Below, in pieces: positions 1 through 22,400 of a stretch of 64,000 bases of DNA. Both the position numbers and the translations under genes were made by a program. Numbering within the stretch: position 1 is the first letter of the stretch; each line of letters starts with the position of its first letter. This DNA comes from Trichocoleus sp. (GTDB lineage Bacteria > Cyanobacteriota > Cyanobacteriia > Elainellales > Elainellaceae). Location of the stretch: assembly GCA_036702865.1 (NCBI GenBank), contig DATNQD010000036.1:62001-126000 (forward strand), read 5' to 3'. The notes beneath the pieces are model-generated. The model was given only the letters and a program-made list of their open reading frames with translations. It searched no databases and had not been told where the DNA came from.

Positions 1-1577
1 AAGAGAAATCAACTAAGGCGATCGACTGCTACCAAAATGCTATCAAAGGTTTAGAGGCTGAACTATTTTCAGCTTGTTATAGTCTAGGTGAACTTCTTGA
101 GCAACAGAAGCAGTTTAGCGAGGCGCTGATCTATTATCAAAGGGCAGTTTCAATACATCCAGATCTGGGATGGCTACACTATCGAGTAGGTCAAGTGCTA
201 GCTCAGCAAAATCACCTAGATGAAGCAATTGATAGCCACCAAAAAGCAATTGAGGCAGATCCATCAACTGCATGGTTTTATCCAACTTTGGGGAGTCTGT
301 TAGAACAACAAGGCAAGATACGAGAGGCCATTGTTTGTTACCAAAAGGCAATCGAACTAGATGATTGTTTGAGTTGGGTACATCATCAATTAGGAAAGGC
401 TTTGCAGCAGCAAGGAGATATTGAGGGAGCCACTCGTGCTTATCAAAAAGCAATCGAACTAGAGCCTGAGCTTCCCTGGGCTTATCACAGTTTTGGTGAT
501 TTTCTTACTCAATTGGGAGAGTTTGATAAAGCGATTTCTTGTTACCAAAGTGCCCTTGCGATTGATCCCACACTAGCTTGGACTCATAATGCTCTAGGTA
601 ATATCTACCTTTGGCAAAAGGATACTGAAAAGGCAATTATTGCTTTTCGCCAAAGCATTAAGTTTGATCCAAACCTATATCAGACTTACAGTAGTCTAGC
701 AGAACTTCTGAGCGGTGTAGGTGAGATAGAGGAGGCGATCAACTCCTACAAACAGGCTATCTACTGTAAAACAAAACAGTCTCATCCTGAATTTGTTGAA
801 CAGTTTTGGGATTCTTCCAACCCTAGAAAGCCAAATTTCATTATTATTGGAGCTGGTAAATCGGGAACCAGCTCTTTGTACACCTACTTGGCACAACATC
901 CGCAAGTCATACCACCTGTTGGTAAGAGTGATAAGGAAATCGATTTTTTTACAGTTGAGTTTAGTAAAGGTATCGACTGGTATTTATCTCATTTCCCGCC
1001 AATACCAGAAGGGTCAGGTTTTTTGACAGGTGAATCCAGTCCTTCCTATCTGCAATGTGCCGATAATGCAGAAAAAAGATTATTTGCCTCCTTTCCACAA
1101 GTGAAGCTCATCTGCTTGCTAAGAAATCCCATTGATCGGGCTTTTTCTGAATATCAGCAATCGGTTCGGATAGGTATAGAAAAACGCTCTTTTGAGCAAG
1201 TTCTTGAAGAAGAACTAAGTATTTTGCGCATGGTAGATAGCTCGGCTAAGAGTTGTGAAGCTTACTGGTCAACTCAAGAAGGCTACATTGGAAATAGTGT
1301 GTATGTTTTCTTTCTAAAAAAATGGCTATCTACATTTCCGGACAATCAGCTCCTGGTACTACAGAGTGAGGTCTTCTACTCGAATCCTGCAAAAATTATG
1401 GAACGTGTATTTAAATTTCTAAATCTACCAGATTACCAACTTTCATCTTATCCAATAGTGAATTCAGGTTCCTACAGCTCAATTGAACCTAAAGCACGAG
1501 GCATTCTACATCAATTTTTTAAGCCATACAATCAAGAATTGGAAGCACTTTTAAATGAAAAGTTTGATTGGTTTTAA
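1..1577 (+). CDS. TPR-repeat sulfotransferase, 5' partial
   Basis: The reading frame is open from base 3 without a stop, so the gene enters from the left edge; the in-frame GTG at 195 is not a convincing start because TPR repeats continue upstream of it. The N-terminal part is a run of 34-residue TPR units (recurring pattern A-I-xx-Y-Q-K-A-I-E). From about base 826 there is a sulfotransferase domain. It has the PAPS 5'-phosphosulfate loop GAGKSGTSSLYTYL and the 3'-phosphate motif LLRNPIDRAFSEYQQS. Family knowledge: such enzymes transfer sulfate from PAPS to sugars or tyrosines, and the TPRs probably bind a protein partner or acceptor. The TPR-sulfotransferase fusion and the following genes suggest sulfation of a surface glycan or protein. 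The substrate is unknown. Confidence 0.88.
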   Translation, partial: EKSTKAIDCYQNAIKGLEAELFSACYSLGELLEQQKQFSEALIYYQRAVSIHPDLGWLHYRVGQVLAQQNHLDEAIDSHQKAIEADPSTAWFYPTLGSLLEQQGKIREAIVCYQKAIELDDCLSWVHHQLGKALQQQGDIEGATRAYQKAIELEPELPWAYHSFGDFLTQLGEFDKAISCYQSALAIDPTLAWTHNALGNIYLWQKDTEKAIIAFRQSIKFDPNLYQTYSSLAELLSGVGEIEEAINSYKQAIYCKTKQSHPEFVEQFWDSSNPRKPNFIIIGAGKSGTSSLYTYLAQHPQVIPPVGKSDKEIDFFTVEFSKGIDWYLSHFPPIPEGSGFLTGESSPSYLQCADNAEKRLFASFPQVKLICLLRNPIDRAFSEYQQSVRIGIEKRSFEQVLEEELSILRMVDSSAKSCEAYWSTQEGYIGNSVYVFFLKKWLSTFPDNQLLVLQSEVFYSNPAKIMERVFKFLNLPDYQLSSYPIVNSGSYSSIEPKARGILHQFFKPYNQELEALLNEKFDWF

Positions 1578-1619
1578 TTTAAGCTGCTTCTAAAGTAGCT
1601 AGACCAAAGCGAGGTTTTT

Positions 1620-4568
1620 ATGGAAATAGATACAGCTGAAACGCTACAAAGGGAAAAAAATGAACTGGCGGAAATGTATTGCGAATTGGGGCAGGGATGG
1701 CTGCTGCAGGATAATCAAGTGAAGGCAGAGTATTGCTTTCAGCAAGCCAAGAAGTTAATTCCAGATTTTTACTGGAAACAACGCAATTTAGGAATTGAGT
1801 TGGCGGAGCAAGGTCAATGGGGAGCCGCAAGAAGGCAGTATCAAAAGGCAGCTTTACTGAATGGCTGGTATTCCTTCGTATCCCATGGGTACTGTTTCAC
1901 TTATGATTGGTTGACCTATAACATTCCTTATTGGAAGACGCATTTACAGTCTTTAGCTGAGCATCCTATCAACGCTTTAGAAATTGGTAGTTGGGAGGGT
2001 GCTTCTACCTGTTGGTTTCTTGATAATATCTTGACCCATGAGTCTTCTCGAATAACCTGTATTGATACCTTTGAGGGAAGTGTTGAGCATCAGTTTTTTG
2101 ATACTGATTACATTCATTCAATTGAAGCAAGATTTGACGATAATATTGCTAGAACTCAAGCAGTTCACAAATTGGACAAAAGGGTTGGTTTATCTGAAGA
2201 AATCTTACCTCAATTACCTGCTAATAGTTACGATCTTATCTATATAGATGGATCGCATGAAATGCTTGATGTTTTATTCGATGCTCTTTGGTGCTGGCAG
2301 TTAGCCAAAGTGGGAGGCATTATTGTTTTTGATGACTACGAGTGGGGTGATCAAAGAGAGATTACTAAAGTGCCTAAGCCAGCAATTGATGCTTTCCTAT
2401 TGGAATTTGGCGACAAGGTAGAGGTCTTGCATCAGGGTTATCAGGTGCTTGTAAAAAAGAAATCTCATTCTGAATTTGAGAGAAATCTAGTCATTTTTAG
2501 GATGGCAAATCAGCTGCAAGAATTAGGCAAAATTGATGCGGCGATCGAATGCTATCAGCTGGGGATTCGCTTCAGTCCTGACTTTTGCTGGTTCTATAGC
2601 AACATGAGTGAATTGTTTGCCAGACAAGGTAAGGTTGAGAAGACGGTAGAAACTGCCCATATTGCAGTTAGTTTAAATTCTTCTCATCCTTTTACTTATC
2701 AAAAAAACTGGATTACCCTTTCAAAGCAGGGAAAGCTAAAAGAAACAATTGTTTACTGTCAAACTCTTATTAACACCCAAACCGACACAACTAGTATTTA
2801 TTATGCATTATTAGCTGAAATTTGGGCTAGCCAGGGACAGTTTAGCAAAGCAACATCCTGTTACCAAGCATCGATTTCAGTGGATTCAGAGTTAGTAATG
2901 AGCCACAATGGGCTGGCAGAGGTGCTGAAAGCAACCAATCAGCCTGATGAAGCAATTAAATGTTATCGGGATATACTTAAATTAAATCCAAATCATCCTT
3001 GGATATATTATTTTCTAGGCTGTTTGTTGAAGGAAACCAATGCTAAGGAAACAGTTGATTTACTCAGACAAGCAATTAAGAAATGCTCTGAAAAAACTAC
3101 TCCTTGGGTTTTCTATACTACGCTAGGCTACGCTCTGATGAAAGAACAGGAGCTTGATGAAGCTGTGAATGCCTATGAAATGGCTATACAAATAGAGCCC
3201 AGTTACTTTGGACATCGTGGGTTGGGATTAGTGTTCTTGGAGCGGGAAGAACCCTGGAGAGCGATTGATCACTTTCTTCAAGCGCTTACCTTTGATAACG
3301 CCAGAGAAATTTATTATGACTTGGCAAATGCTCTTGAAAAACTGAATCTTTTAGATGAAGCCGCATATTGTTGTCGCCCTTTCGTTACAGATCTTTCAAT
3401 AAATGCTATAGAGAAATGCCTTAATCTCAAAGCAAACTGGTCAGTTGTGAACGAGATTTCTACACTTGAAAGTGTTAATTGTATTCATCTAGAACCTTCC
3501 ACTGAAGTCATTCTGTCTCATCCAAAAACTGTTGATGCCTACTCCAAGGATGTAGTGATAAGAACAGAGGGGCATTGGCATCAATTTGACAGCCACAAAC
3601 TTCGTACAACTGGTACTTTTGCAGCAGTGATACGAAATGGTCGTGCCTATTGCGACGATCGCACTCATTTTGTGATTTCGGAAGAAAACTTCATTATAGA
3701 AGCGCTATCGTATCGCGGCTTTAATTTGGCAATGGCATCGATCCAGGGCAAGTTGGAACCTCACATTGTTCCAGGAAGAATTGCTTATTTATCTAGTTCC
3801 GAACCCTATCCTACTTATAACTATTCTCACTGGCTAGTAGATGTTTTTCCGAGGTTCGATCTACTGCGGCAGGCAAATATTGATATTACTCAAATTGATT
3901 ATTTTGTTCTAAAAGGAGCAAATTTACCGTTTCATCAACAAACCCTAAATCTTTTAGGAATTCCCGAAGCAAAGATTTTAGATGCTAACCGACATCCGTA
4001 TATTCAAGCTGATGAACTAATTGTCCCCTCTATTTATGCTCACCCTGGTAACTTTTGTGCAGACTGGGTCATTCAATTTCTAAGAAAGAATATCTTGAGT
4101 CAAGAAATCAATATAGATTCCTCAAAATATCCAAAATACTTCTATATCACGCGACTTGGTGCTCCTAATGCGCGACGGGTTGTGAATGAAGCTGATGTAA
4201 TGGATCTTCTTTCCCAATATGGTTTTGAATTTGTGACTTTAGATACTCTACCTGTTGTAGAGCAAGCCCGTCTTTTCGCTAATGCTGAAATGATTGTTGC
4301 TCCTCACGGAGCAGGGCTAACTAATCTCATTTTCTGTCAACCAGGCACAAAAGTTGTTGAGATTTTTTCGCCTTTCTACGGTATGAGAAGCTACTGGGTT
4401 ATTAGCAATCAGTGTAAGTTGAACTACCAATATTTGATAAGTAGAGACTTTAAGGGACTTCTGGAGAAAGCATTAAACTCTCCTCCTGATTTACTTAGAA
4501 CTGAGATGAATCAGGAGGATATTTTAGTTGATCTTGAATCATTAAAACGAGCGCTTGAGTTTAACTAA
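1620..4568 (+). CDS. TPR / class I methyltransferase / TPR / GT61 glycosyltransferase multidomain protein
   Basis: The 982-residue protein starts at an ATG 42 bases after the preceding TPR-sulfotransferase, so the two are probably co-transcribed. Domains in order: a short TPR region (about 1-85); a Rossmann SAM methyltransferase (about 95-285) with glycine motif ALEIGSWEGAST and acidic motifs YIDGSH and FDDYEWG; TPR units (about 285-600); and a C-terminal DUF563/GT61 glycosyltransferase (about 660-960). GT61 hallmarks seen are YNYSHWLVDVFPR and the APHGAGLTNLIF motif near the end. GT61 enzymes include EGF-specific O-GlcNAc and xylan xylosyl transferases. Two catalytic domains on one TPR scaffold suggest coupled glycosylation and methylation. 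The actual acceptor cannot be read from the sequence. Confidence 0.85.
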   Translation: MEIDTAETLQREKNELAEMYCELGQGWLLQDNQVKAEYCFQQAKKLIPDFYWKQRNLGIELAEQGQWGAARRQYQKAALLNGWYSFVSHGYCFTYDWLTYNIPYWKTHLQSLAEHPINALEIGSWEGASTCWFLDNILTHESSRITCIDTFEGSVEHQFFDTDYIHSIEARFDDNIARTQAVHKLDKRVGLSEEILPQLPANSYDLIYIDGSHEMLDVLFDALWCWQLAKVGGIIVFDDYEWGDQREITKVPKPAIDAFLLEFGDKVEVLHQGYQVLVKKKSHSEFERNLVIFRMANQLQELGKIDAAIECYQLGIRFSPDFCWFYSNMSELFARQGKVEKTVETAHIAVSLNSSHPFTYQKNWITLSKQGKLKETIVYCQTLINTQTDTTSIYYALLAEIWASQGQFSKATSCYQASISVDSELVMSHNGLAEVLKATNQPDEAIKCYRDILKLNPNHPWIYYFLGCLLKETNAKETVDLLRQAIKKCSEKTTPWVFYTTLGYALMKEQELDEAVNAYEMAIQIEPSYFGHRGLGLVFLEREEPWRAIDHFLQALTFDNAREIYYDLANALEKLNLLDEAAYCCRPFVTDLSINAIEKCLNLKANWSVVNEISTLESVNCIHLEPSTEVILSHPKTVDAYSKDVVIRTEGHWHQFDSHKLRTTGTFAAVIRNGRAYCDDRTHFVISEENFIIEALSYRGFNLAMASIQGKLEPHIVPGRIAYLSSSEPYPTYNYSHWLVDVFPRFDLLRQANIDITQIDYFVLKGANLPFHQQTLNLLGIPEAKILDANRHPYIQADELIVPSIYAHPGNFCADWVIQFLRKNILSQEINIDSSKYPKYFYITRLGAPNARRVVNEADVMDLLSQYGFEFVTLDTLPVVEQARLFANAEMIVAPHGAGLTNLIFCQPGTKVVEIFSPFYGMRSYWVISNQCKLNYQYLISRDFKGLLEKALNSPPDLLRTEMNQEDILVDLESLKRALEFN

Positions 4569-4571
4569 TGT

Positions 4572-5006
4572 TCAACCTGTCATCTCAATCCAAAGCCGAT
4601 TGAAGAATGCTTTGATGGGATGTTTCTTTTGTTCCGCTAGAATCTCTGTAGCCCACCGTCTCTTAAACTCAGGTGAGCGACGAAATTGTTGCACGTTTTC
4701 CATCCGCCCTTGAAAGCCATATCCTAAATGAAGCTTCTCATGTTCGCATTCTCGTCTTAGATAAACGCGGTAGACTGCCCTGGCAAAGTCCCTACCATCT
4801 AATGTCATTGTGGCTACAAGAAAGTCCTCATCATTAAACTCAAAAGGATTCATCTTTAGAAAGACAGCAATACACTTATCGATCGCCGCTTCATCAGCAG
4901 ATTTCTCATTTTCTGCTTCCCTTTCTCCGTTCAGTAAAGCATCGCTGTTCCCAAGAAATTGATCACCAATCCCAAGAAGTGAGTCATTACTATACTTGTC
5001 CTGCAT
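4572..5006 (-). CDS. Small DUF4214-like protein
   Basis: The frame is open to 5036, but I place the start at the ATG at 5006-5004 (144 residues) because AGGAG lies at 5013-5017, six bases upstream of it. The N-terminal 55 residues are polar and probably disordered. The C-terminal part contains FARAVYRVYLRRE followed by QFRRSPEFKRRWA. This resembles the DUF4214 pattern (aromatic-Tyr-x-x-x-Leu-x-Arg, then a SPEF-like helix), a domain often attached to cyanobacterial glycosyltransferases and exported proteins. That assignment is by eye and tentative. It ends only three bases from the convergent TPR-GT61 gene and lies 52 bases downstream of the coiled-coil sulfotransferase, so it is probably in that gene's transcript. 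Confidence 0.65.
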   Translation of the reverse strand: MQDKYSNDSLLGIGDQFLGNSDALLNGEREAENEKSADEAAIDKCIAVFLKMNPFEFNDEDFLVATMTLDGRDFARAVYRVYLRRECEHEKLHLGYGFQGRMENVQQFRRSPEFKRRWATEILAEQKKHPIKAFFNRLWIEMTG

Positions 5007-5058
5007 ACATTTCTCCTGCAAACTGAGCTGAATCAAAGCAAACCCCTAATTAGAGATT

Positions 5059-7617
5059 TTAATAGCTGCCAATTAAAGATTTTGGCTTCGTCAAATAGCG
5101 TACAAGCTGCTGCCATTCCGGTGAACTAACGAGATTTTGGAAGTTTACTGCCTGTCCTTGCTGTGCTGCCAACTGAGTGAAAGCCTCAATCCACTTCAAC
5201 ACTGCCTCTGAACGCTGAAAGGATGCACAAGTTAAAGACTGCTTAAGCAATTGTGTCATTTGCTCTAGATTACCCAATCGATATGCCATCCAGGCATCCC
5301 AAACTAATAAATCGTAATCCCCCTGCCCCTCATTGCCATTATGCTGGGAAGATTGCCGAATTTGCGATCGCTCCAGTTCTATCTGAACCTGTTGTAACTG
5401 CTCCCGAAGCTGCTTTCGTTCTGCTTCTGTATCCTGGAGTTGGACTTGCATTGTAGCTATAGAATCTTCTGCTTGCTGACGTGCCTGTCTAACCTGCTGC
5501 AACTCCGTGTGGAATTGGGAAAGTACTGCCTCAGTTTCATTAAGTTGGTCTTGCGATTGTTCCAGAACTACCTCAGTTTGGCGAAGCTGGTTCTGATGTT
5601 GATGCAGAGAAATCTCTGTTTGATGAAGTTCCGAGCGCGCCTGTGCCAGTTCAGCTTGAGTTTGCTGAGAATGTGATCGGGTTTGTTCTAACTCGAAGCG
5701 GGTTTGTTGCACTTCAAATTGGGAGTGCTGCACTTGCAATTGTGTTTGCTCAAGCTCAGTATGGGAAGCTTCGAGTTGTAATCGTGTTTGTTCGAGTTCT
5801 GCTTGCGCTTTTTCCCAGTTTGTTTGTTTCTGCTGCAATTGAGCATGAACTTGTTCCAGTATAATTTCAGTTTCCCGTAGTTGGTTTTGAGATTGAAGCA
5901 ATAGTCTTTCTGTTTGATCGCGCTGTTCTCTGGTTTGTTCTAATATCGTCCGGGTTTCCGCTTGCTCAGTTTCTAGTTCTTGCAGATGTAATTCTCTTTG
6001 TTCTAGCTCAGCTTGAGTATGCTGAACCTGATCTTGCATTCCTTGTAATTCAGCTGTGGCTTGCGCTAAAACCGCTTCTGTTTGACGACGATGCTCTTGT
6101 GATTGTCCTAATGCTTGCTCTGTTGCTTGTAATTGTTTTTTGGATTGCTCTAGCTCTACTTGCCATTGCTGAGATTGTGACTGAACATTATCTAATTCAC
6201 TGCCCAAATGTTGAGTTTCTAGGCGTGATTGTTCAAGTTCACATTGAGAGTGTTGCTGCTGCAACTGTAACTGTTCAAGCTCAGATCTCAACTGCTCAGA
6301 TTGCGATTGGCTTTGGTCTAATTTAAGTTGGAGGTGCTGGGCTTGCGATCGGCTCTGTTCAAGTTCTAGTTGTGACTGGTAAGTCTGCGATCGACTCTGC
6401 TCAAGTTCGCTTTGTAACTGCTGGAACTGCGATCGGCTCTGTTCTAATGCTGTGTTACTCTGTTGGACCTGCTGCTGGAAAGACTCTGATTGAGATGTTA
6501 GTCGCTGATTGCTAACTTGCACCTGTTGCAGTTGTTGTTGAAGTTGAGCAACAAATTCCTCCTTCTGATGAAGAGTTGCCTGAACCTGCTGTAGCTCTGC
6601 TTGGGTCTGGTAGGATTGTAGTTTCATTTGAGCAACCTCAAGCTGTTGCTGCGTTGCTTGAGACTCAAGCTGTTTTTGCAAATGGGCAACTTCTGCTTGA
6701 AATTGCTGTCCCTGTCTTTGATACTCATCCGACACTACTAATAAATCTTGATTTTGGCGTTCCAGTTGACGTAGCTTGTACCAGTCCTCAAAGACGCTAA
6801 TCTTATGAAACGGTGGAATAGCTCGATCGCGCCAAGATGAGTTTGCTGTCTGCCCCATAGGATACCAAGCCCTTGTTTCCAAGGATTGATACAAGTCAAG
6901 AGATTCAGGATAGTAGTGATGAACTTGGCTAGCACGATGATTCGCATTCTCCAAACTCCTTAGTAACGTGGCATTGTAAATATCTTTATCTGGGTTAGTA
7001 AGACTCAAGCTAAATTTTTGATTAATTGCTTCAATAACTGCATAAGTACGCTGTGTAATTGTAGGTAGATTAACCAGTAAACAACGTTCAGGGTAGCGCT
7101 CATAAAAATCCAGAATCTTATTGTTATAGTGCAGCCAGAGCTTAACTGCTAGATCAGGCTGTTTCCGAAGGACCTCATCTGTGCCACGGCGATAGAGCGA
7201 GTCAATGACTTCCCAAGGAGAACGGTAAATTAACAGAAAATTTGCAGTAGGAATAAAATCTGCCCAAAAATCTAGGAATAGAGTTGTGCGGGGATCTTTC
7301 CAACCCCAGATAGGGGAGATGGCGTTTCTAGTAACAAGCTGTTTTGCTTCCTCAAAATATAGCTCTTCAACAGCCAGTTCATCTTGAAGTGTCCACCCAT
7401 CCTCATTCACACATTGAGCACGAAGCAAGGTTTGATGGAACCGGTAAAAGTCCATGTTTTCAAAGTGTCCTCGTTGATTTGATGCACTTGAGCCCATCAA
7501 CTCCTGCCCAATATGTAGTCCTGCACTCTGCAGCAATTCAGCTGTCAGAGACGTACCAGATCGGTGCATTCCAACAATAGCGAGGGTTGATGTTTTGTCT
7601 AACTGCTTAGAGGACAT
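5059..7617 (-). CDS. Sulfotransferase with long 14-residue-repeat coiled coil
   Basis: The ATG is preceded by GAGAAAGG. Residues 1 to about 270 form a sulfotransferase-like domain with the PAPS loop VGMHRSGTSLTAELL and a GWKDPRTTLFLDFW segment typical of bacterial sulfotransferase-3-like proteins. Residues about 275-760 are Gln/Glu/Ser-rich coiled coil, with a clear 14-residue (two-heptad, 42-base) repeat whose units start ELEQSRSQ. Residues about 773-840 form a small C-terminal module ending SPEWQQLV. The GT2 protein at 10376-11350 carries the same module. The coiled coil probably acts as a spacer or multimerisation rod. Catalytic activity is inferred from the intact PAPS loop. Open frames on the opposite strand here are artefacts of the repetitive composition. 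Confidence 0.88.
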   Translation of the reverse strand: MSSKQLDKTSTLAIVGMHRSGTSLTAELLQSAGLHIGQELMGSSASNQRGHFENMDFYRFHQTLLRAQCVNEDGWTLQDELAVEELYFEEAKQLVTRNAISPIWGWKDPRTTLFLDFWADFIPTANFLLIYRSPWEVIDSLYRRGTDEVLRKQPDLAVKLWLHYNNKILDFYERYPERCLLVNLPTITQRTYAVIEAINQKFSLSLTNPDKDIYNATLLRSLENANHRASQVHHYYPESLDLYQSLETRAWYPMGQTANSSWRDRAIPPFHKISVFEDWYKLRQLERQNQDLLVVSDEYQRQGQQFQAEVAHLQKQLESQATQQQLEVAQMKLQSYQTQAELQQVQATLHQKEEFVAQLQQQLQQVQVSNQRLTSQSESFQQQVQQSNTALEQSRSQFQQLQSELEQSRSQTYQSQLELEQSRSQAQHLQLKLDQSQSQSEQLRSELEQLQLQQQHSQCELEQSRLETQHLGSELDNVQSQSQQWQVELEQSKKQLQATEQALGQSQEHRRQTEAVLAQATAELQGMQDQVQHTQAELEQRELHLQELETEQAETRTILEQTREQRDQTERLLLQSQNQLRETEIILEQVHAQLQQKQTNWEKAQAELEQTRLQLEASHTELEQTQLQVQHSQFEVQQTRFELEQTRSHSQQTQAELAQARSELHQTEISLHQHQNQLRQTEVVLEQSQDQLNETEAVLSQFHTELQQVRQARQQAEDSIATMQVQLQDTEAERKQLREQLQQVQIELERSQIRQSSQHNGNEGQGDYDLLVWDAWMAYRLGNLEQMTQLLKQSLTCASFQRSEAVLKWIEAFTQLAAQQGQAVNFQNLVSSPEWQQLVRYLTKPKSLIGSY
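5500..6440 (-). repeat. Degenerate 42-base tandem repeats coding coiled-coil units
   Basis: Within the sulfotransferase gene the translated sequence falls into consecutive 14-residue units: ELEQSRSQFQQLQS, ELEQSRSQTYQSQL, ELEQSRSQAQHLQL, KLDQSQSQSEQLRS, ELEQLQLQQQHSQC, ELEQSRLETQHLGS and so on, decaying toward the C-terminus. At least three units carry the same HIP1-like core (TGCGATCG followed by G/A-CTCTG). This is what recent unit duplication would leave. Boundaries are approximate. Confidence 0.75.
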
Positions 7618-8401
7618 ACCTTTCTCCCGGTTCTTTTTAGCTTTATGCTAGATATCCCTTTTAGAGATAGCCGTATTTCTTGGTATTTTTTATTATTATT
7701 CTTACATTGCCTGTATTGCTCTTATATTTACCAGAGTAATACTAGGTTGACTACAGCACTTTGCGTCACGGTTCAGTACAAGATGAAAAGACAAAATGCT
7801 TACTATATATGGTTCCTGACCATTCAGCATAATCAATTCTCAAGAAAAGTGCTGTATAAAGCTCAAGAATAGACAATAAATCTATCTTTAATTTCTTTAG
7901 AGAGCTGATTTATACTTTGAGAGAATAACTGAAAAGAGTAGTTTGCAACGTAGGAATCAGGATTTAAGCGCTGACAACCCAACGAAAGAATCAGAGGTTC
8001 AGCTGCTAGATCCGACTTCTCAGACACCCTCTGAACAACGGCTATTGCATTAAGCTTTACTCAGGGCAGCTTGCTTACTTTGCAGGGGAGGAAAGAACTT
8101 TTGCAGCTGACTAATACGTTTGGTTGGGAAGGGCAGTAAAAGAAGTAATTGTTTTCACCGTTACAGATAACCATTACCCTTTGCACAGAGAATCCTATGT
8201 TCAACGTTGGGTCAACAGCTGACTTAATGCTGAGACTGAGCAGCATAACAATTATTTCGGATTGAAGAAACTTGAGCTAAATTGAAGCGATTGCGCTTGA
8301 GCCAGATCAAGTCAGAAATGAAAAACTTCCAAAGTTTGCTTTAGGAGATGCTTGAGAATTAAGATTCAGCGGCACTGGGAGACTTTTAGATCCAGTGGAA
8401 G
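7618..8401. other. 784-base gap without a convincing gene
   Basis: The gap lies upstream of the coiled-coil sulfotransferase and downstream of the GT2-sulfotransferase, so it should hold the former's promoter on the minus strand. The short open frames here lack ribosome-binding sites and family-like sequence. A stretch of about 50 codons on the plus strand (roughly 7905-8052, ending TAA) reads as polar, protein-like sequence but has no start codon. It could be the tail of a decayed gene. AT content looks higher than in neighbouring genes. Confidence 0.5.
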
Positions 8402-10225
8402 CTACAGCCCTTGTAATTCAGCACTGATGTTTTGCAACCACGCCTGCGAATTCAGTAGATTCTGCTTCACTTGCTGTAAAGAAGATAAAAAAGCGTTTTG
8501 TTGTTCGGGCTCTATGATCAAACTTGATTCAGTGGAGTAGCCCAAATCACGCAACATCGTACCTGCAATTTGTTCAAATTTCTTGCGGTCTTCCAGGCAC
8601 ATTTCAGTTTTCCAGCGTTCAATTCTAGAAGTATCTGGCGGTTTAGTTGTGTTTTGAAAGATTGCAAGCCTCTCTTCTTTTGAAATAAGAGCGGGATGAT
8701 CAGAGAACTCATTTAGGCGATTAAGAGCTGTCTTGTGATATTCCAGCATTTCTGCTTTGTACGGCAAGTTAATAAACTCGCAAATCTGTTTCAAGGTTGA
8801 AACAGGATCAGTTACTAAGTTTTCATAATGTATTTCTAGATAATGAGGGCAAAGTTGAGCCTGTTGCTTTGCTTCTCGAACTTTCCAAACCCAATCTACA
8901 GCAAGCGTTTCTATGTCCTGTCCTGGACTAAACCAAAGACTTTTGAGAGAAAGGGCAACATCTCGACCATCGCGAATAATATGAATGAAATGAGCTTCAG
9001 GCAAAAGAGTCTTTACCGTTAAAAGATGTCTTCCATACGAAGGGGTCTTTTCGCCCCATCGCTGTTTCTTAAATCGTGCTGCATAGAGGCGATAGAATGC
9101 TCGTAGCCCTTCACTTATCGTGAAAGGTTGTATTTTATCAGACTCCTCCTTTAAATCTTTTGCAGCAATGTGGAACTCAGCCCACCTTGGATGATGAATT
9201 AGAAGGTTATAGAACTGTTCACGTATGGCTTCTTCCGCTCCTTCTAGCTGAGTCAATTCTGGAATAAAATGAGTTTCCGAGGGAATTGTCAAGTCAGGAT
9301 GAGCATCTAACATCAATCTCAGTAGTGTTGTGCCACTACGCCCCGCTCCAATAATAATAGGCATGGGCGGATAGTTTTCTGATTTCACCTTGTTCTGCCA
9401 TAGTGTTAGATTCTGTGGATAATACGAATCTCTTGAAGTTCCTATAAAGGTATGGACAGTCCATACGTCTGATTTATCCCATGCGTAATTGTTGTTGAAC
9501 TGTTTAAGCTGATCCCTGTTAGGAAAATTGAGTTGACTAGGTACAAAGGTTACTCGGCTGCCACCCCATCCTTTTGATAGATTGTCTTTTGAAAATATTC
9601 GGCTTCCATACTTTGCAATTGCATGGGAGCGGCTTAAGGCAATATAGTGACGCAGAACGAATGAATTCGGATAAATTTTTTGACCACTAAATTGAACTTG
9701 ATGTCCACCCTGGGAATGAAGATCAATCGAATCATTTTTCTTCCAAGCATTTAAGCGATGTAAAGGTTTAGGTTGAAAGAAATAATAATGTTGCATTTCT
9801 TGGACATAATCTTTATTCACAAATGATTCATCATCACTAGTTGGTAGGAAGACGAATTCATCAAAATTGATTGCATTGTAGCCCTGGTGGTCAACTGCTT
9901 GAATTGCCTCCAATAATGTCTCATGTGGAGCCGGAGCTTGGCGAATTTCATCAGCGTCATGGTGAATAAACCAATCTGCCTCAATTTCTCGTGCTAATCG
10001 CTCTTCATTTAACAAGCTAAGCTGTAGTTCACGAGTTCCATTAAAAGGCAAATGCTCAATTCTAAAGATACTTCTCCCCAAAAAACGTGTTGCAATCTCT
10101 AATGTGCGATCGGTTGAGCCATTATCAATAAGACAAACTTCAATTCCTTGAGCATGTAAATGCTCTAAACATTTGGCAATAAATAACTCTTCATTTCTAA
10201 CTGTCAATAAAGCAACAACTCTCAT
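8402..10225 (-). CDS. GT2 glycosyltransferase fused to sulfotransferase
   Basis: The ATG has AAGGAG eight bases upstream. Residues 1 to about 215 are a GT2/GT-A glycosyltransferase-like domain: start VVALLTVRNEE, then LIDNGSTDRT and the metal-binding HHDADEIR. From about residue 285 a sulfotransferase domain follows, with PAPS loop IIIGAGRSGTTLLRLML and 3'-phosphate motif IIRDGRDVALSLKSLW. The 607-residue protein may add a sugar and a sulfate to the same glycan, although each domain could act alone. Family knowledge supports PAPS-dependent sulfation; the acceptor is unknown. It is one of three sulfotransferase domains in the first 10 kb, each in a different fusion. Confidence 0.88.
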   Translation of the reverse strand: MRVVALLTVRNEELFIAKCLEHLHAQGIEVCLIDNGSTDRTLEIATRFLGRSIFRIEHLPFNGTRELQLSLLNEERLAREIEADWFIHHDADEIRQAPAPHETLLEAIQAVDHQGYNAINFDEFVFLPTSDDESFVNKDYVQEMQHYYFFQPKPLHRLNAWKKNDSIDLHSQGGHQVQFSGQKIYPNSFVLRHYIALSRSHAIAKYGSRIFSKDNLSKGWGGSRVTFVPSQLNFPNRDQLKQFNNNYAWDKSDVWTVHTFIGTSRDSYYPQNLTLWQNKVKSENYPPMPIIIGAGRSGTTLLRLMLDAHPDLTIPSETHFIPELTQLEGAEEAIREQFYNLLIHHPRWAEFHIAAKDLKEESDKIQPFTISEGLRAFYRLYAARFKKQRWGEKTPSYGRHLLTVKTLLPEAHFIHIIRDGRDVALSLKSLWFSPGQDIETLAVDWVWKVREAKQQAQLCPHYLEIHYENLVTDPVSTLKQICEFINLPYKAEMLEYHKTALNRLNEFSDHPALISKEERLAIFQNTTKPPDTSRIERWKTEMCLEDRKKFEQIAGTMLRDLGYSTESSLIIEPEQQNAFLSSLQQVKQNLLNSQAWLQNISAELQGL

Positions 10226-10375
10226 TAACTTGGCTCCTTACCATTCTACAAAACATAAATCAATCTATTCTTTACAGGCTTAATTCGTAAAAAATGTATT
10301 TTCGCCTAACGATTGTAAGACTCATTTCTAGTGTTAGCCTGCACTAGCTTGATGATGAAAACCTAGCAACGCTAC

Positions 10376-11350
10376 TTATCTCGGTTGTAAAACTAACTGC
10401 TGCCACTCTGGCGATAGAATGAGTGCTTTGCTATCAAATTGAGCACCGTATTCTGACGTATACGCTGAGAAACGATCGAGCCAATGCAAAATTGTTTCTG
10501 TGTATAGAAAAGGTGTATAGTGTAGAGATTGCTCCAAATGTTGAATCGCTTCTCCTACATAGTTAGTAGAATAGAGCCGCCAGGCAATCCAAACGAGAGT
10601 AAAGTAACGGCTTTCTCGCTCTATTTTTTTGATTGCCTCTGGCAAATCCGATCGCGTAAAAAATCGGTTCCAAACTGTCCAGCATTCTTCTGCCTGAACT
10701 AAGGTATTGAGCGAATCGTTTCGATCGTGTTGGCGGTAAAGCACAGTGACTTGCTTCACCCAAGCTGTAGGGCAATTTAACAAAACTAGACGTTGAATCA
10801 GATCAACATCACTGGCCTGACGATAAGCAGCATTCAGTTCACCAACACGCAATAGCCAATTGCGTCGGAACAGCATAGCACTGAAAAAAGCTGGCATTCG
10901 CCGAATCCAATTCACTGCATCGAGAACGGGAGCTTCTTGCCAGGGTTCCACGGCTCCCAAAGGATCACCTTGAGCATTAATCAATCGCCAACCACTATGC
11001 ACCATGCCGATCGCCGGATCTGATTCAAAACAAGCTACTTGAAGCGACAGTTTTTCTGGCAATAGCAAATCATCTTGATCCAGCAGTGCTATATATTCGC
11101 CCTGTGCTTGTTTGATGCCCTGCGTTCTGGCGCTGGCAACACCCTGATTTTGCTGATAATAATAGCGAATTTGGGTCGGATACCGATCGCAGTAAGCCTG
11201 GACAATCTGCTGCGTTTGATCAGTTGAGCCGTCATCGATAACAATCAATTCCCAATGAGGATAAGTTTGTTGCAGAACACTCTCGATCGTTTCGGCAATA
11301 AATCGATCGCCGTTGTAGGCAGGAATAACGACGCTGACTAGGGAAGCCAT
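10376..11350 (-). CDS. GT2 family glycosyltransferase with SPEWQQLV C-terminal module
   Basis: This 324-residue protein opens with the classic GT-A sequence VSVVIPAYNGDRFI, then VIDDGSTDQT and the DxD-type motif ALLDQDDLLLP. It should transfer a sugar from a nucleotide sugar at the cytoplasmic face of the membrane; donor and acceptor are not evident. Residues about 254-320 form a helical C-terminal module (W-x-A-W at the start, SPEWQQLV at the end). This aligns without gaps to the end of the coiled-coil sulfotransferase at 5059. It sits between the glycan block and dnaE in the same orientation, and dnaE's start is far upstream, so co-regulation with dnaE is unlikely. Confidence 0.9.
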   Translation of the reverse strand: MASLVSVVIPAYNGDRFIAETIESVLQQTYPHWELIVIDDGSTDQTQQIVQAYCDRYPTQIRYYYQQNQGVASARTQGIKQAQGEYIALLDQDDLLLPEKLSLQVACFESDPAIGMVHSGWRLINAQGDPLGAVEPWQEAPVLDAVNWIRRMPAFFSAMLFRRNWLLRVGELNAAYRQASDVDLIQRLVLLNCPTAWVKQVTVLYRQHDRNDSLNTLVQAEECWTVWNRFFTRSDLPEAIKKIERESRYFTLVWIAWRLYSTNYVGEAIQHLEQSLHYTPFLYTETILHWLDRFSAYTSEYGAQFDSKALILSPEWQQLVLQPR

Positions 11351-16829: not shown

Positions 16830-17492
16830 ATGACAAACAAAACCCTGACGCTCGACGATCGCCTCTACGACTACCTCTGTTCTGTCTCGCTCCAAGAGTC
16901 GGAGGTTTTGCAAAAGCTGCGCGAGGAAACTGCCAGTCATCCCATGAGCCAGATGCAAATTGCGCCAGAACAAGGACAGTTTATGGCATTACTGGTACGG
17001 TTAATTGGCGTCAAAAAAGCCCTGGAAATTGGTGTTTTTACCGGATATAGTTCGCTTTGTATTGCGTCGGCGTTACCAGGTGACGGACAGTTAATTGCCT
17101 GTGATGTCAGTGAAGACTATACCGCGATCGCTCGTCGCTATTGGGAACTGGCAGGCGTAACTCACAAGATTGCTTTACGCATTGCCCCTGCCCTCGAAAC
17201 CCTAGATTTCCTAATTGCTGAAGGTCATCGCAATACATTTGATTTTGCCTTCATTGATGCCGACAAAAGTAACTACCCCGAATACTATGAGCGTGCCTTA
17301 CAACTCATTCGTCCGGGGGGATTAATTGCGATCGATAATGTACTTTGGTCAGGCAGAGTCGCTGACCCCAATGAGCAGGATAATCGCACTCAAAAAATTC
17401 GCGCCTTTAATGAGAAATTACATCAGGACGATCGCGTGATGATTAGCTTATTGCCGATCGGGGATGGGGTAACGTTGGCAATGAAGAAGTGA
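16830..17492 (+). CDS. SAM-dependent O-methyltransferase (caffeoyl-CoA OMT-like, family 3)
   Basis: The 220-residue length is typical. SAM-binding motif I is ALEIGVFTGYSSLCIA, motif II includes LIACDVSED, and the divalent-cation/catalytic region is FAFIDADKSNYPEYYE followed by GGLIAIDNVLWSG. These match cyanobacterial cation-dependent O-methyltransferases acting on catechol-type phenolics; the physiological substrate in cyanobacteria is not settled. It is divergent from the frameshifted permease with an 83-base gap between the two starts. It starts at ATG 16830; the window offers no strong ribosome-binding site. Confidence 0.9.
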   Translation: MTNKTLTLDDRLYDYLCSVSLQESEVLQKLREETASHPMSQMQIAPEQGQFMALLVRLIGVKKALEIGVFTGYSSLCIASALPGDGQLIACDVSEDYTAIARRYWELAGVTHKIALRIAPALETLDFLIAEGHRNTFDFAFIDADKSNYPEYYERALQLIRPGGLIAIDNVLWSGRVADPNEQDNRTQKIRAFNEKLHQDDRVMISLLPIGDGVTLAMKK

Positions 17493-17843
17493 GGCGATCG
17501 GGAGGAAATGAATCTGTTACCCGATAGGTGGAGGAGCGAAGCACTCAGACAAATCAAGGGATTTCATATGTTCCTCCACTCAGCGGGTAGGAATATTCTG
17601 AGTTGCTTGAATAGAACGATCGGATGATTGCCAATACTCACAGAAAGTCAGTCTAAAAGAACCCAAATTGTAGTTTGGACAGAGACATTAACGTGAATGA
17701 GTTGGGCAATGATCCAGGGATGTAGCGAGGATCAACAACGTTCTGCAAAAAATCTTCCATTCAAGCAGCAACTTCGTAACTTGTGAAAGTTGATCTTTGT
17801 CGAGATCCTGAACGAAGCTTTTCGTTGAGATGATCGATCGCGA
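17493..17843. other. 351-base gap between convergent genes, with a long imperfect stem-loop
   Basis: There is no gene here. An inverted repeat pairs TACCCG (17518-17523) plus TGGAGGA (17529-17535) with TCCTCCA (17572-17578) plus CGGGTA (17584-17589). It leaves a symmetric five-base internal loop and a 36-base apical loop. No T-run follows, so it is not a standard terminator; it may stabilise the upstream 3' end or be part of a small RNA. Confidence 0.5.
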
Positions 17844-19148
17844 TCACAAAGCAGTCGTTCGAGGCGGCACAACTAATACTTTATCGACTCGGTTACCGTC
17901 CATGTCCATCACCTCAAAGCGGAAGCCTTCCCATTCAAAATGATCGGTTGATTTGGGGATATGGCCGAGTTGAGTAATGACAAAACCACCCATCGTTTGA
18001 TAGTTACCGCGATCTTCACCGGGAAATTCTTCAACATCCAGCAGTTCTTTCAATTCATCGATCGGCAGCATTCCATCCACAAGCCAGGAGCCATCTTCGC
18101 GCTGAACTATATCGGCTTCCTGAGGTTGATCGGCAAAGGGAATATCACCAATAATTACTTCCATCACATCATTCAGCGTCACTAATCCTTGCGTAATGCC
18201 ATACTCGTCCACCACCAGCGCAATATGAGTCCCCAATTGCTTAAATAGTTCTAGAACGCGCAGGGCACGGGTGCTTTCGGGGATAAACAGCGGTTCTCGC
18301 AACAGCGTGGTCAGGTCAAACGGTTGGCTTGAGAGGCTGCTTCGCAGCACATCCGTAACGTTTACCACGCCCAAAACGTTATCCAGCGTTTCCATACAGA
18401 CTGGATAGCGGTTGTGCTGATTTTCAATCATTTTGCGGCGATTTGCTTCTGCGGAGTCGCTTAAGTCGAGCCAGACCACATCAAGGCGAGGAGTCATTAA
18501 TGATCCCACCTGGCGATCGCCCAAATTAAACACCCGCTCCACCATGTCCTGCTCTGCCGCTTCAAACATCCCTGCTTCCGCTCCCTGGCGCACCAGCACT
18601 TTAATTTCTTCCTCAGTAATGAGCGGCTCGTTTGAGGAGATATTGACGCGCAGCAGCCGTAATACGAGTTCTGTCGAAGCACTGAGCAGATGAACGATCG
18701 GTGCAACCAGCACTGCCACCCACTGCATCGGTTTTGCCACCGCTGAGGCAATCTTTTCGGGGCTATTGAGCGCTAACCGTTTCGGCACCAGTTCACCGAC
18801 AATCAGCGATAAGTAGGTGATCACCAGCACCACTAAACCGAAGGCGACCGCATCACTGGATTGCTTCAGAGCCGGAATCAGCGCAATGTAAGCGGCTAGA
18901 CGATGGGCGATCGTTGCACCCCCAAATGCACCTGCCAGAATCCCAATCAGCGTAATGCCAACCTGCACCGTCGATAAAAAGCGGTTGGGCGAGCTTGCTA
19001 ATTCTAATGCTGCCAATGCCTTCGAATCGCCTTGCTCCGCTAACTCCTGCAATCTGGCGCGACGGGCTGAGACGATCGCCATTTCAGACATCGCAAAAAC
19101 GCCGTTGGCAAGCATTAACACAAGCACAATCAAGATTTCAAGAAGCAT
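17844..19148 (-). CDS. HlyC/CorC (CNNM-DUF21, CBS) family transporter-associated protein
   Basis: The 434-residue protein has an N-terminal DUF21/CNNM membrane domain with about four hydrophobic segments (from LLEILIVLVLMLANGVFAM). A CBS-domain pair follows (region from LMTPRLDVVWLDL to VTLNDVMEVIIGD), and a small C-terminal CorC_HlyC domain comes last (WLVDGMLPIDELKELL). Relatives are implicated in magnesium or cobalt efflux and sodium-coupled ion handling. The hemolysin name is historical. It is divergent from mfd with a 259-base gap and convergent with the O-methyltransferase. Confidence 0.92.
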   Translation of the reverse strand: MLLEILIVLVLMLANGVFAMSEMAIVSARRARLQELAEQGDSKALAALELASSPNRFLSTVQVGITLIGILAGAFGGATIAHRLAAYIALIPALKQSSDAVAFGLVVLVITYLSLIVGELVPKRLALNSPEKIASAVAKPMQWVAVLVAPIVHLLSASTELVLRLLRVNISSNEPLITEEEIKVLVRQGAEAGMFEAAEQDMVERVFNLGDRQVGSLMTPRLDVVWLDLSDSAEANRRKMIENQHNRYPVCMETLDNVLGVVNVTDVLRSSLSSQPFDLTTLLREPLFIPESTRALRVLELFKQLGTHIALVVDEYGITQGLVTLNDVMEVIIGDIPFADQPQEADIVQREDGSWLVDGMLPIDELKELLDVEEFPGEDRGNYQTMGGFVITQLGHIPKSTDHFEWEGFRFEVMDMDGNRVDKVLVVPPRTTAL

Positions 19149-19407
19149 GGAGGCTATGCGGTTGGGATGGCTAGTATCGGAGTGAGCGAGAGCGATCGGC
19201 TAATCTTGGCATCTGGGGAGATGAGCAGAACTAGCAAACTGCCTGTCACTATAGAAGTTAGCATTCTCTCAAGTAGGAGAAACCAACTGTACCCCGATAC
19301 GGAAAGAAATATCTGATTCTCGGTCTTCCCTTATGTTCACTTTTAGAATAGTAAAGATTGGTATCGCTTCTGTTGATCTTACGGCTCACTGCCGCATCTG
19401 ATGGCTT

Positions 19408-22400
19408 ATGGCATTTTCCTCCGTTACCCGTGCCCTGGGACGATCGCCCCTCACCGCTGAACTCATCGCTAAGTTAGAGCAGCAGCATTTCCTGCGGCTG
19501 AATGGAGTCGCCCGTCTGCCCAAAGGACTCGTTTCTTCTGCTCTGGCACAAACGCAGCACAAAAATCTCCTGGTCATTGCCGCCACCCTTGAAGAAGCCG
19601 GACGCTGGGCAGCACAGCTAGAAGCAATGGGCTGGAAAACAATGCATTTCTACCCCACTTCCGAGGCATCGCCCTATGAGCCGTTTGACCCAGAATCCGA
19701 TTTGGTTTGGGGACAGTTGCAGGTTTTGGCTGACTTGCAGGGATTAAGCATCAGAAGCCAGAAATCGGGAGACGCAAATTCGATCGCCATCATCACGACA
19801 GAACGAGCACTTCAGCCCCATTTGCCGCCTGTGGAGGCGTTCAGCCCCTATTGCCTGACCTTAACAAAAGGCATGGAGTTGAATTTGGAGGCATTCAGTC
19901 AGCAGGTCGCTGGCTTAGGCTATGAGCGGGTGTCGCTGGTGGAAAGCGAAGGGCAATGGAGTCGTCGGGGCGATATCATCGATGTTTTTCCCGTCGCGAC
20001 TGAACTGCCTGTGCGCCTGGAGCTATTTGGGGATGAGCTAGACCAACTGCGCGAATTTGATCCAGCATCGCAACGATCGCTCGACAGCATCGATCGCCTG
20101 ATTTTGACTGCGACTGACTTTAGCCCGATTATTTTGGCAGCGTTGAGAGGACAAGGGGACGGAGATAAGCTAACGCAAATTTCGCCATATCTTTCGGTCG
20201 AAGAACTGGAGCGACTGGAAGAAGGTCAGCCTCCAGAAGGAATGCGGCGATTCCTGGGCGTGGCATTTGAGCAACCTGCTTCGCTGCTAGATTATCTGTC
20301 GCCAAATACCTTGATTGCGATCGACGAACCCGCTCAATGTCAGGCACATAGCGAGCGGTGGTATGAACATGCCGAGGAGCAATGGCAAGAGTTAGGGAGC
20401 AAAGGGCGAGAGGACTACCCACTCCCCAAAATCCACCGCTCCTTTGAAACTTCCCTCGCTGCCGTCGAACAGTTCGATCGCCTCTACCTTTCAGAGCTTT
20501 CGGAAGAGAATGAGGGGCTGAATCTCGCCAGTCGTCCGGTTCCAGCCATTCCCCATCAATTTGCTCGATTGGCAGAAACCTTACGGCAGGAGCGCGATCG
20601 CAGTTTTTCAATTTGGCTCGTATCGGCACAGCCATCTCGATCGGTCGCTTTGTTGCAGGAGCATGACTGTCCGGCGCAGTTTGTCCCGAATCCCCGCGAT
20701 TATCTGGCGATCGATAAGTTGCAGACCCAGAAAACGCCGATCGCGGTGAAGTATTCCGGCTTGGCAGAGCTAGAGGGATTCATTCTGCCGACGTTCCGAT
20801 TGGTGGTTGTGACCGATCGTGAGTTTTTCGGACAGCATACCCTCGCCACACCGACCTATATTCGTCGCCGCAGACAAGCCGCCTCCAAGCAGGTAGACCC
20901 CAACAAGCTACAGTTGGGCGACTATGTGGTTCACAAAAATCATGGCGTGGGGCGGTTCCTCAAACTGGAAAGCTTGACCATCAACAGCGAAACTCGCGAA
21001 TATCTGGTGCTGCAATATGCAGATGGCTTGCTGCGCGTTGCGGCAGATCAGGTAGGGTCTCTATCGCGCTTCCGGGGTGCGGGGGATCAAACGCCAGAAC
21101 TGAATAAGATGTCGGGCAAAGCCTGGGAGAGAACCAAGAGCAAAGTCCGCAAAGCCGTCAAAAAAGTAGCAGTTGATTTGCTGCAGCTTTACGCAAACCG
21201 GGCACAGCAAGAGGGTTTCACCTTCCCGGTCGATATGCCCTGGCAGGAAGAATTAGAGGAGTCATTCCCCTATCAACCTACGCCCGATCAGCTCAAGGCA
21301 GTGCAGGACGTGAAGCGCGATATGGAAAGCCCTCGTCCAATGGATCGCCTGGTCTGTGGCGATGTGGGCTTTGGCAAAACGGAGGTCGCCATTCGAGCAA
21401 TTTTCAAAGCGGTAACTGCCGGAAAACAAATTGCGCTCCTCGCTCCAACCACAATTCTGACGCAACAGCACTATCACACGCTCAAAGAACGCTTTGCTCC
21501 CTATCCAATTCAGGTTGGCTTACTCAATCGCTTCCGCACTGCCGAGGAACGCAAAGACATTCAGCAGCGATTAGCAACGGGTGAACTGGATATCGTAGTC
21601 GGGACGCATCAGCTATTGGGCAAAGGTGTACAGTTCAAAGATCTGGGCTTGCTGGTTGTCGATGAAGAACAGCGGTTTGGCGTCAACCAGAAGGAGAAAA
21701 TTAAGTCGCTGCGAACCCAGGTCGATGTACTGACCCTGAGTGCGACGCCCATTCCCCGGACGCTGTACATGGCGCTTTCCGGCGTGCGAGAGATGAGCTT
21801 GATTACCACTCCGCCCCCGTCTCGTCGTCCAATTAAGACCCACTTGGCTCCTTATGATCCGGAAGTGGTGCGAACTGCAATTCGGCAAGAACTCGATCGC
21901 GGTGGTCAGGTGTTCTATGTTGTGCCCAGAGTCGAGGGCATTGAAGAAGTTGCTGCCAAGTTACGGGAAATGATTCCTAGTGCAAGGTTGGCAACGGCTC
22001 ACGGGCAGATGCAGGAGGGTGAACTGGAAGCGACGATGCTCACCTTCAGTAATGGTGATGCAGATATTCTGCTTTGTACAACGATCATTGAGTCAGGGTT
22101 GGATATTCCACGCGTCAACACAATCCTGATTGAAGATGCCCAAAAGTTTGGCTTGTCGCAGCTTTACCAGTTGCGCGGTCGGGTGGGTCGGGCTGGCATT
22201 CAAGCACATGCCTGGCTGTTCTATCCCAAACAAAGTGCGTTAACCGATAACGCCAGACAACGACTTCGCGCCATTCAGGAGTTTGCACAGCTTGGCTCTG
22301 GCTATCAGCTTGCCGTCCGTGATATGGAGATCCGGGGCGTTGGTAACTTGCTCGGCGCGGAACAGTCGGGACAAATGGACGCGATCGGCTTTGATCTCTA

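Follow-up and report, generated by a model that had tools for sequence, protein, structure and literature searches.

The window analysed here, a stretch of 64,000 nucleotides (C36:62001-126000) of the 5.9-Mb genome of Trichocoleus sp., opens inside a block of genes encoding glycosyltransferases (GT), methyltransferases and sulfotransferases (ST). A sequence-only reading of the window had described an 11-kb block at this place. Its location was correct, but the block does not start at base 1, since the reading frames and Pfam profiles of the flanking DNA showed that the same block runs on for 10.4 kb left of the window edge, with the plus-strand operon starting at C36:51563, about 10.4 kb left of window base 1. 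The features are listed below, plain numbers being positions in the window.

C36:51563-52474, plus strand: RTX calcium-binding protein, 303 aa (Pfam PF00353, E 2e-29)
C36:52498-54906, plus strand: TPR-GT61 protein, 802 aa (reading frames, Pfam)
C36:55146-57101, plus strand: TPR-Methyltransf_24 protein, 651 aa (reading frames, Pfam)
C36:57138-61043, plus strand: TPR-GT2-GT4 protein, 1301 aa (reading frames, Pfam)
From C36:61070 (window -930), plus strand: Methyltransf_11-TPRs-ST protein, 835 aa, the 3' part of the gene lying at 1..1577 (reading frames, Pfam)
1620..4568, plus strand: TPR-Methyltransf_24-TPR-GT61 protein, 982 aa, final gene of the plus-strand operon (Pfam)
4572..5036, minus strand: 154-aa protein of no known family (reading frames, Pfam)
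5059..7617, minus strand: ST (residues ~1-250) followed by a long coiled coil and a C-terminal module of ~100 aa, 852 aa
5062..5376, minus strand: C-terminal module of the ST-coiled-coil protein (phmmer)
7618..8401: 784 bp without recognised gene, between the GT2-ST and ST-coiled-coil genes
8402..10225, minus strand: fusion of GT2 and Sulfotransfer_3, 607 aa (Pfam, PDB comparison)
10376..11350, minus strand: GT2 with the shared C-terminal module, 324 aa (Pfam)

The Methyltransf_11-TPR-ST gene is the fifth of the plus-strand series, whose intergenic gaps range from ~20 to 240 bp. The minus-strand set, formed by the genes for the 154-aa protein, the ST-coiled coil, the GT2-ST and the GT2, converges with this operon, the stop codons of the 154-aa gene and of the operon being separated by 3 bases, and is followed on its right by a gene that we take, by eye, to be dnaE. 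Although the minus-strand series is otherwise tight, no recognised gene lies in the 784-bp gap, and a search of the gap for a gene remnant recognised none. Further left of the window, GT2/GT4 and methyltransferase genes form a cluster of their own (C36:24001-36000, L008:1-11989), and several of the encoded proteins end, after a coiled coil, in a common tail like M-K-S/T-S-K-F-W-K-L-R..W..LK. Also left of the cassette, an arginine/proline-rich tandem-repeat insert was noticed by eye within an RNA methyltransferase-like gene (L009:1670-3475).

Three ST domains, all with different fusion partners, had been proposed from the sequence alone, and Pfam bore them out. The first, in the 835-aa protein, matched PF00685 (E 3.7e-17) and the third, in the 607-aa GT2-ST, matched PF13469 (E 3e-34), while the second escaped the whole-protein scan of the 852-aa protein because the coiled coil hides it, its first 251 residues scoring above the cut-off when searched alone (PF13469, E 1e-9). 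The PAPS loops, also claimed to be intact, are indeed so in the three domains, with both the 5' motif (GAGKSGTSSL, GMHRSGTSL and GAGRSGTTLL in the first, second and third) and the 3' motif (RNPIDRAFSEY, YRSPWEVIDSLY and RDGRDVALS) present, which places all of them among the PAPS-dependent sulfotransferases; among ten sequences the motifs of the second were nearly invariant. The nearest solved structures to the first ST were heparan sulfate N-/3-O-sulfotransferases (E 1.6e-25 to NDST1 in the PDB), but it lacks the N-deacetylase domain and does not belong to the NDST enzymes. Those nearest to the third were tyrosylprotein sulfotransferases (TPST; E 2.6e-13), in an alignment limited to two separate stretches, with polyketide STs scoring similarly and the nodulation ST profile also matching, and the PDB search detected no solved relative of the second. 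The block STs also differ from heparan sulfate and tyrosylprotein sulfotransferases in being fused to TPRs or GT2.

A search of the genome found just four ST loci, three of them inside this block, a clustering that exceeds chance. The fourth (C67, L011:8492-9277) is a single-domain ST that by eye adjoins a luciferase-like monooxygenase gene. Orthologs of the GT2-ST occur in the genome G030 (56% over 604 residues) and in Laspinema, and the ST-coiled-coil protein has orthologs that keep both the coiled coil and the module in Laspinema (L280) and at two further loci (L276 and L277). Two large ST-containing reading frames (L036:3866-11716, 2617 aa, and L037:1786-10431, 2881 aa) were set aside as probable polyketide synthases with an internal ST.

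Pfam equally confirmed the TPR-methyltransferase-TPR-GT61 protein and the GT2 of the sequence-only reading. Both GT61 domains of the block scored above the Glyco_transf_61 cut-off (E 3e-30 and 6e-32) and therefore belong to this family, and both keep the catalytic His, the Arg pair and the Asn of the N-R-R triad, this Asn being Val in most of their relatives. The only relevant solved relatives of the GT61 profile were EOGT and POMGNT2 (E 3e-7 and 4e-9), which act on glycoproteins. The block domains share with them the catalytic His and the two UDP-binding Arg described for these enzymes (PMC13123520), which however reside in the ER and carry no TPRs. A second comparison is offered by O-GlcNAc transferase (OGT, GT41), where a TPR superhelix directly precedes the glycosyltransferase domain as in the TPR-GT61 proteins of the block. 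In the model of a relative (L154, pLDDT 89), the TPR solenoid precedes the catalytic half. When the whole model was used for a fold search the matches were filled by TPR solenoids, OGT standing high together with unrelated TPR scaffolds, and the TPR half had the OGT TPR among its closest structural matches; as judged from this model, the resemblance to OGT is generic. Since the catalytic domain is GT61 and Pfam found no GT41, the block enzymes are not OGT/GT41 members. The model of the 982-aa protein itself was weaker (pLDDT 76, pTM 0.43) and was left unused, and an argument from an asparagine ladder in the TPR lumen was dropped because Asn at that place is common in the TPR consensus. GT41 was also considered for three TPR-rich neighbour proteins (L170, L222 and L187), in which Pfam found TPRs only.

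As for the minus-strand set, the DUF4214-like protein announced by the sequence-only reading was not recovered: the 154-aa protein had no Pfam match up to E 10, and a search of the genome with the DUF4214 profile (PF13946) gave no match there. On the other hand, the C termini of the 324-aa GT2 and of the ST-coiled-coil protein are homologous (phmmer E 5.6e-12), sharing a module of ~100 aa (window 5062-5376 and 10379-10693) that matched no Pfam family and that looks like a common docking tail. GT2 or ST proteins bearing this module adjoin cassettes of the clade described below in several other loci, and in several genomes RTX cassettes have a homolog of the 324-aa GT2 next to them.

The GT61 loci used for comparison came from 60 relatives and from 80 named loci of a public genome collection, the latter picked by similarity and motif to this GT61 subfamily and coming in many cases from related genera. 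An RTX gene was found directly upstream of the GT61 gene, on the same strand and within 2.5 kb, in 51 of the 56 evaluable named loci, which are not 51 independent events because the loci are related; the median distance was 310 bp. By our own count the 5.9-Mb genome holds ~35 RTX reading frames, and with this number the chance of an RTX gene in that upstream position would be below 1%. The named loci span Leptolyngbya-like genera, Microcoleus, Okeania, Trichodesmium and Laspinema, and reach Pleurocapsa. In a tree of 66 GT61 domains, a single clade (SH-aLRT 99) gathers all 29 RTX-linked rows, together with seven unlinked and four unevaluable ones, and none of the 23 evaluable rows outside it is RTX-linked. 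To go by this tree, linkage to RTX is a property of a single GT61 clade. The other TPR-GT61 of the Trichocoleus genome (C87) has no RTX neighbour, and in five of the 56 loci, mainly from Planktothrix, the enzymes are kept without a recognised RTX neighbour. In Aphanothece hegewaldii (L226), about six ST-like genes (5138-8705, 17039-20600) surround an RTX-clade TPR-GT61 without RTX neighbour.

Downstream content was counted in the 49 loci where 7 kb or more of sequence was available downstream. The RTX-GT61 pair was followed by Methyltransf_24 in 28/49 and by a TPR-ST like that of the window in 27/49, a second GT61 appearing in 20/49 and a GT2 in 18/49. Many Microcoleus loci read RTX, TPR-GT61, TPR-Methyltransf_24-GT61 and then TPR-ST; their second enzyme gene encodes 1371 aa with the same domain make-up as the 982-aa protein of the window, whose GT61 groups on the tree with theirs. 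In Laspinema palackyanum D2a, an operon of RTX, TPR-GT61, GT2-GT4 (69/61% to the protein of the window species) and methyltransferase-TPR genes is convergent with GT2-ST, GT2 and ST-coiled-coil genes, and in L276 methyltransferases and a further ST separate an ST-coiled-coil gene from the orthologous TPR-GT2-GT4 gene that it faces. In Okeania (L167:7781-14857, L158 and L157), TPR-GT61 proteins of 2290-2358 aa carry TPR blocks on both sides of GT61.

Fusions, domain order and enzyme set vary strongly between genomes, and some TPR-ST and ST-coiled-coil genes sit away from RTX genes. Such wide variation might be expected if unrelated glycosyltransferases and sulfotransferases had come together by chance in a variable surface-glycan region. 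Nevertheless, the RTX neighbour in 51/56 loci, the convergent two-part block retained in Laspinema and the L276 arrangement already disfavour this explanation, which we regard as very improbable. The domains are present and, on checking, the genes are linked in relatives and not scattered, so that the dedicated, scaffolded pathway put forward by the sequence-only reading is sustained by conservation. As its product, a sulfated, methylated extracellular glycoprotein fits better than a free glycan. From these comparisons, the block forms the right side of a cassette, conserved in cyanobacteria, with a small RTX protein and soluble, repeat-scaffolded transferases, to which the minus-strand set also belongs. 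We found no description of such a cassette in the open-licence literature; the enzyme families themselves are already known.

No membrane segments were predicted in the ten block proteins, RTX protein included, and hence the block has no flippase, polymerase, co-polymerase or membrane priming transferase. The sequence-only reading had pointed to the DNA left of base 1 as a place to look for Wzx/Wzy or ABC transporters, and none was recognised there; throughout the stretch read we recognised no Wzx/Wzy/ABC glycan exporter in the block or beside it, and no genes for a flippase, a polymerase or a co-polymerase. These observations bear on the possibility that the product is a sulfated exopolysaccharide or LPS-like glycan exported by Wzx/Wzy or ABC machinery encoded elsewhere, with the RTX protein as a lectin-like anchor or slime component. 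GT61 enzymes also make polysaccharides, and ~15-27 kb to the left of the RTX gene there is another GT/methyltransferase cluster. Putative exopolysaccharide clusters, where cyanobacterial sulfotransferases are mostly found (PMC8205485), commonly contain GT2 and GT4. The described system of this kind is the synechan (xss) cluster of Synechocystis PCC 6803, which encodes glycosyltransferases and two sulfotransferases for a sulfated exopolysaccharide (PMC8205485) and resembles the block in joining several glycosyltransferases with sulfotransferases in one cyanobacterial cluster. However, the synechan cluster includes Wzx, Wzy, a co-polymerase and a priming transferase, a set absent from the block, and the block enzymes are predicted to be soluble, many of them TPR-fused, behind an RTX gene, the synechan paper (PMC8205485) mentioning neither TPR nor RTX. 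Moreover, polysaccharide pathways would not require TPR solenoids on nearly every enzyme, and the RTX link is confined to one GT61 clade. Altogether we consider this alternative unlikely. The sequence-only reading had found the block not recognisable as a described cluster; the RTX gene, which lay outside its field of view, turns the interpretation towards a protein-modification cassette.

The putative acceptor itself supplies further evidence. The 303-aa protein shows the Gly/Asp-rich nonapeptide repeats of RTX proteins. Those of the cassettes are mostly 210-400 aa long, contain few cysteines, end mostly in F-E-I/L-F/I and have a short N-terminal tail that often begins M-S/T-Q/E-V/I-x-N-P-T. 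Ser, Thr and Pro make up 28% of their first 50 residues vs 15% of the remainder, and 19% of the same part of eight control RTX proteins of this genome (p 0.003, with a small control); the bias is less extreme in the Trichocoleus tail. In the 631-aa RTX protein of 'Phorm 6' (L201:6477-8372), whose gene adjoins TPR-GT61 and ST genes, the tail is expanded into mucin-like Ser/Thr/Pro repeats. The C terminus of the cassette RTX protein resembles that of type I secretion substrates, and the genome holds two HlyB-type transporters above the cut-off. The enzymes could also modify other, or several, acceptors encoded in trans, for instance surface proteins or further RTX proteins, with the adjacent RTX protein as one client among many; the ~35 RTX reading frames of the genome, the TPR-GT61 that Planktothrix retains without RTX neighbour and the unlinked TPR-GT61 proteins of other clades would all suit such a role. 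Against it, the immediate upstream position of a small RTX gene and the start motif of its product are kept over many genera, and we think this possibility quite improbable, though less so than a chance neighbourhood. From this linkage, the adjacent RTX protein is the likely acceptor.

We thus favour, as the probable reading, that the RTX protein of the cassette receives a methylated and sulfated glycan from the soluble enzymes while still in the cytoplasm, ahead of its type I secretion. The observed basis of this reading is given by the domains, the intact PAPS motifs, the gene order, the RTX linkage and, in the stretch read, the lack of predicted membrane segments and of recognised Wzx/Wzy, from which we infer the acceptor, the order of steps, the chemistry, the TPR docking, the export and the role. 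The small RTX protein would be made in the cytoplasm and glycosylated there by the TPR-GT61, TPR-methyltransferase, TPR-GT2-GT4, methyltransferase-TPR-sulfotransferase and TPR-methyltransferase-TPR-GT61 proteins, along with the GT2, GT2-sulfotransferase and sulfotransferase-coiled coil from the opposite strand. The TPRs of OGT hold its substrates, and the TPR solenoids of the cassette might likewise hold the protein acceptor, each other or both. GT61, GT2 and GT4 domains would add sugars, probably onto the Ser/Thr/Pro-rich N-terminal tail, the methyltransferases may O-methylate, and the sulfotransferases would sulfate the glycan, in the manner of the heparan sulfate enzymes, and perhaps also the protein, as tyrosylprotein sulfotransferases do. 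Type I secretion carries a protein straight out of the cytoplasm, so that modification by soluble enzymes, with nucleotide sugars and PAPS as donors, would have to come first. A type I system encoded elsewhere would then export the modified RTX protein to the surface, where it could serve as an acidic coat or adhesion layer that binds calcium.

There are long-standing reports that RTX surface proteins of cyanobacteria carry glycans and are required for gliding or swimming. Two of those reported as glycosylated are oscillin of Phormidium uncinatum and SwmA of Synechococcus WH8102 (PMC3034196), and we found no enzyme assigned to the glycosylation of either in the open-licence literature. They resemble the proteins described here in the RTX repeats of a cyanobacterial surface protein, and the cassettes occur in filamentous Microcoleus, Kamptonema, Phormidium-like strains and Okeania; however, oscillin (646 aa) and SwmA (130 kDa) are larger than most cassette RTX proteins, the 'Phorm 6' protein being close to oscillin in length. 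A bolder proposal would be that a sulfated and methylated glycan of mucin-like character is assembled in the cytoplasm, directly on a co-encoded and type I-exported RTX protein, by GT61, methyltransferase and sulfotransferase enzymes fused to TPRs, and that this previously undescribed system is the route of gliding cyanobacteria to sulfated surface glycoproteins such as oscillin; we advance it tentatively, as a possibility that we would not yet expect to hold in full.

In kind, the system would represent protein glycosylation in bacteria; the genomic support for the cassette is solid, and its mechanism is a proposal. The cassette enzymes provide named candidates for the makers of cyanobacterial surface glycoproteins, available in complete genomes such as that of Microcoleus vaginatus HSN003, and they suggest that sulfation of secreted glycoproteins may take place in the bacterial cytoplasm by means of TPR-docked enzymes, in a group that includes Microcoleus, Trichodesmium and Okeania, ecologically important mat- and bloom-formers.
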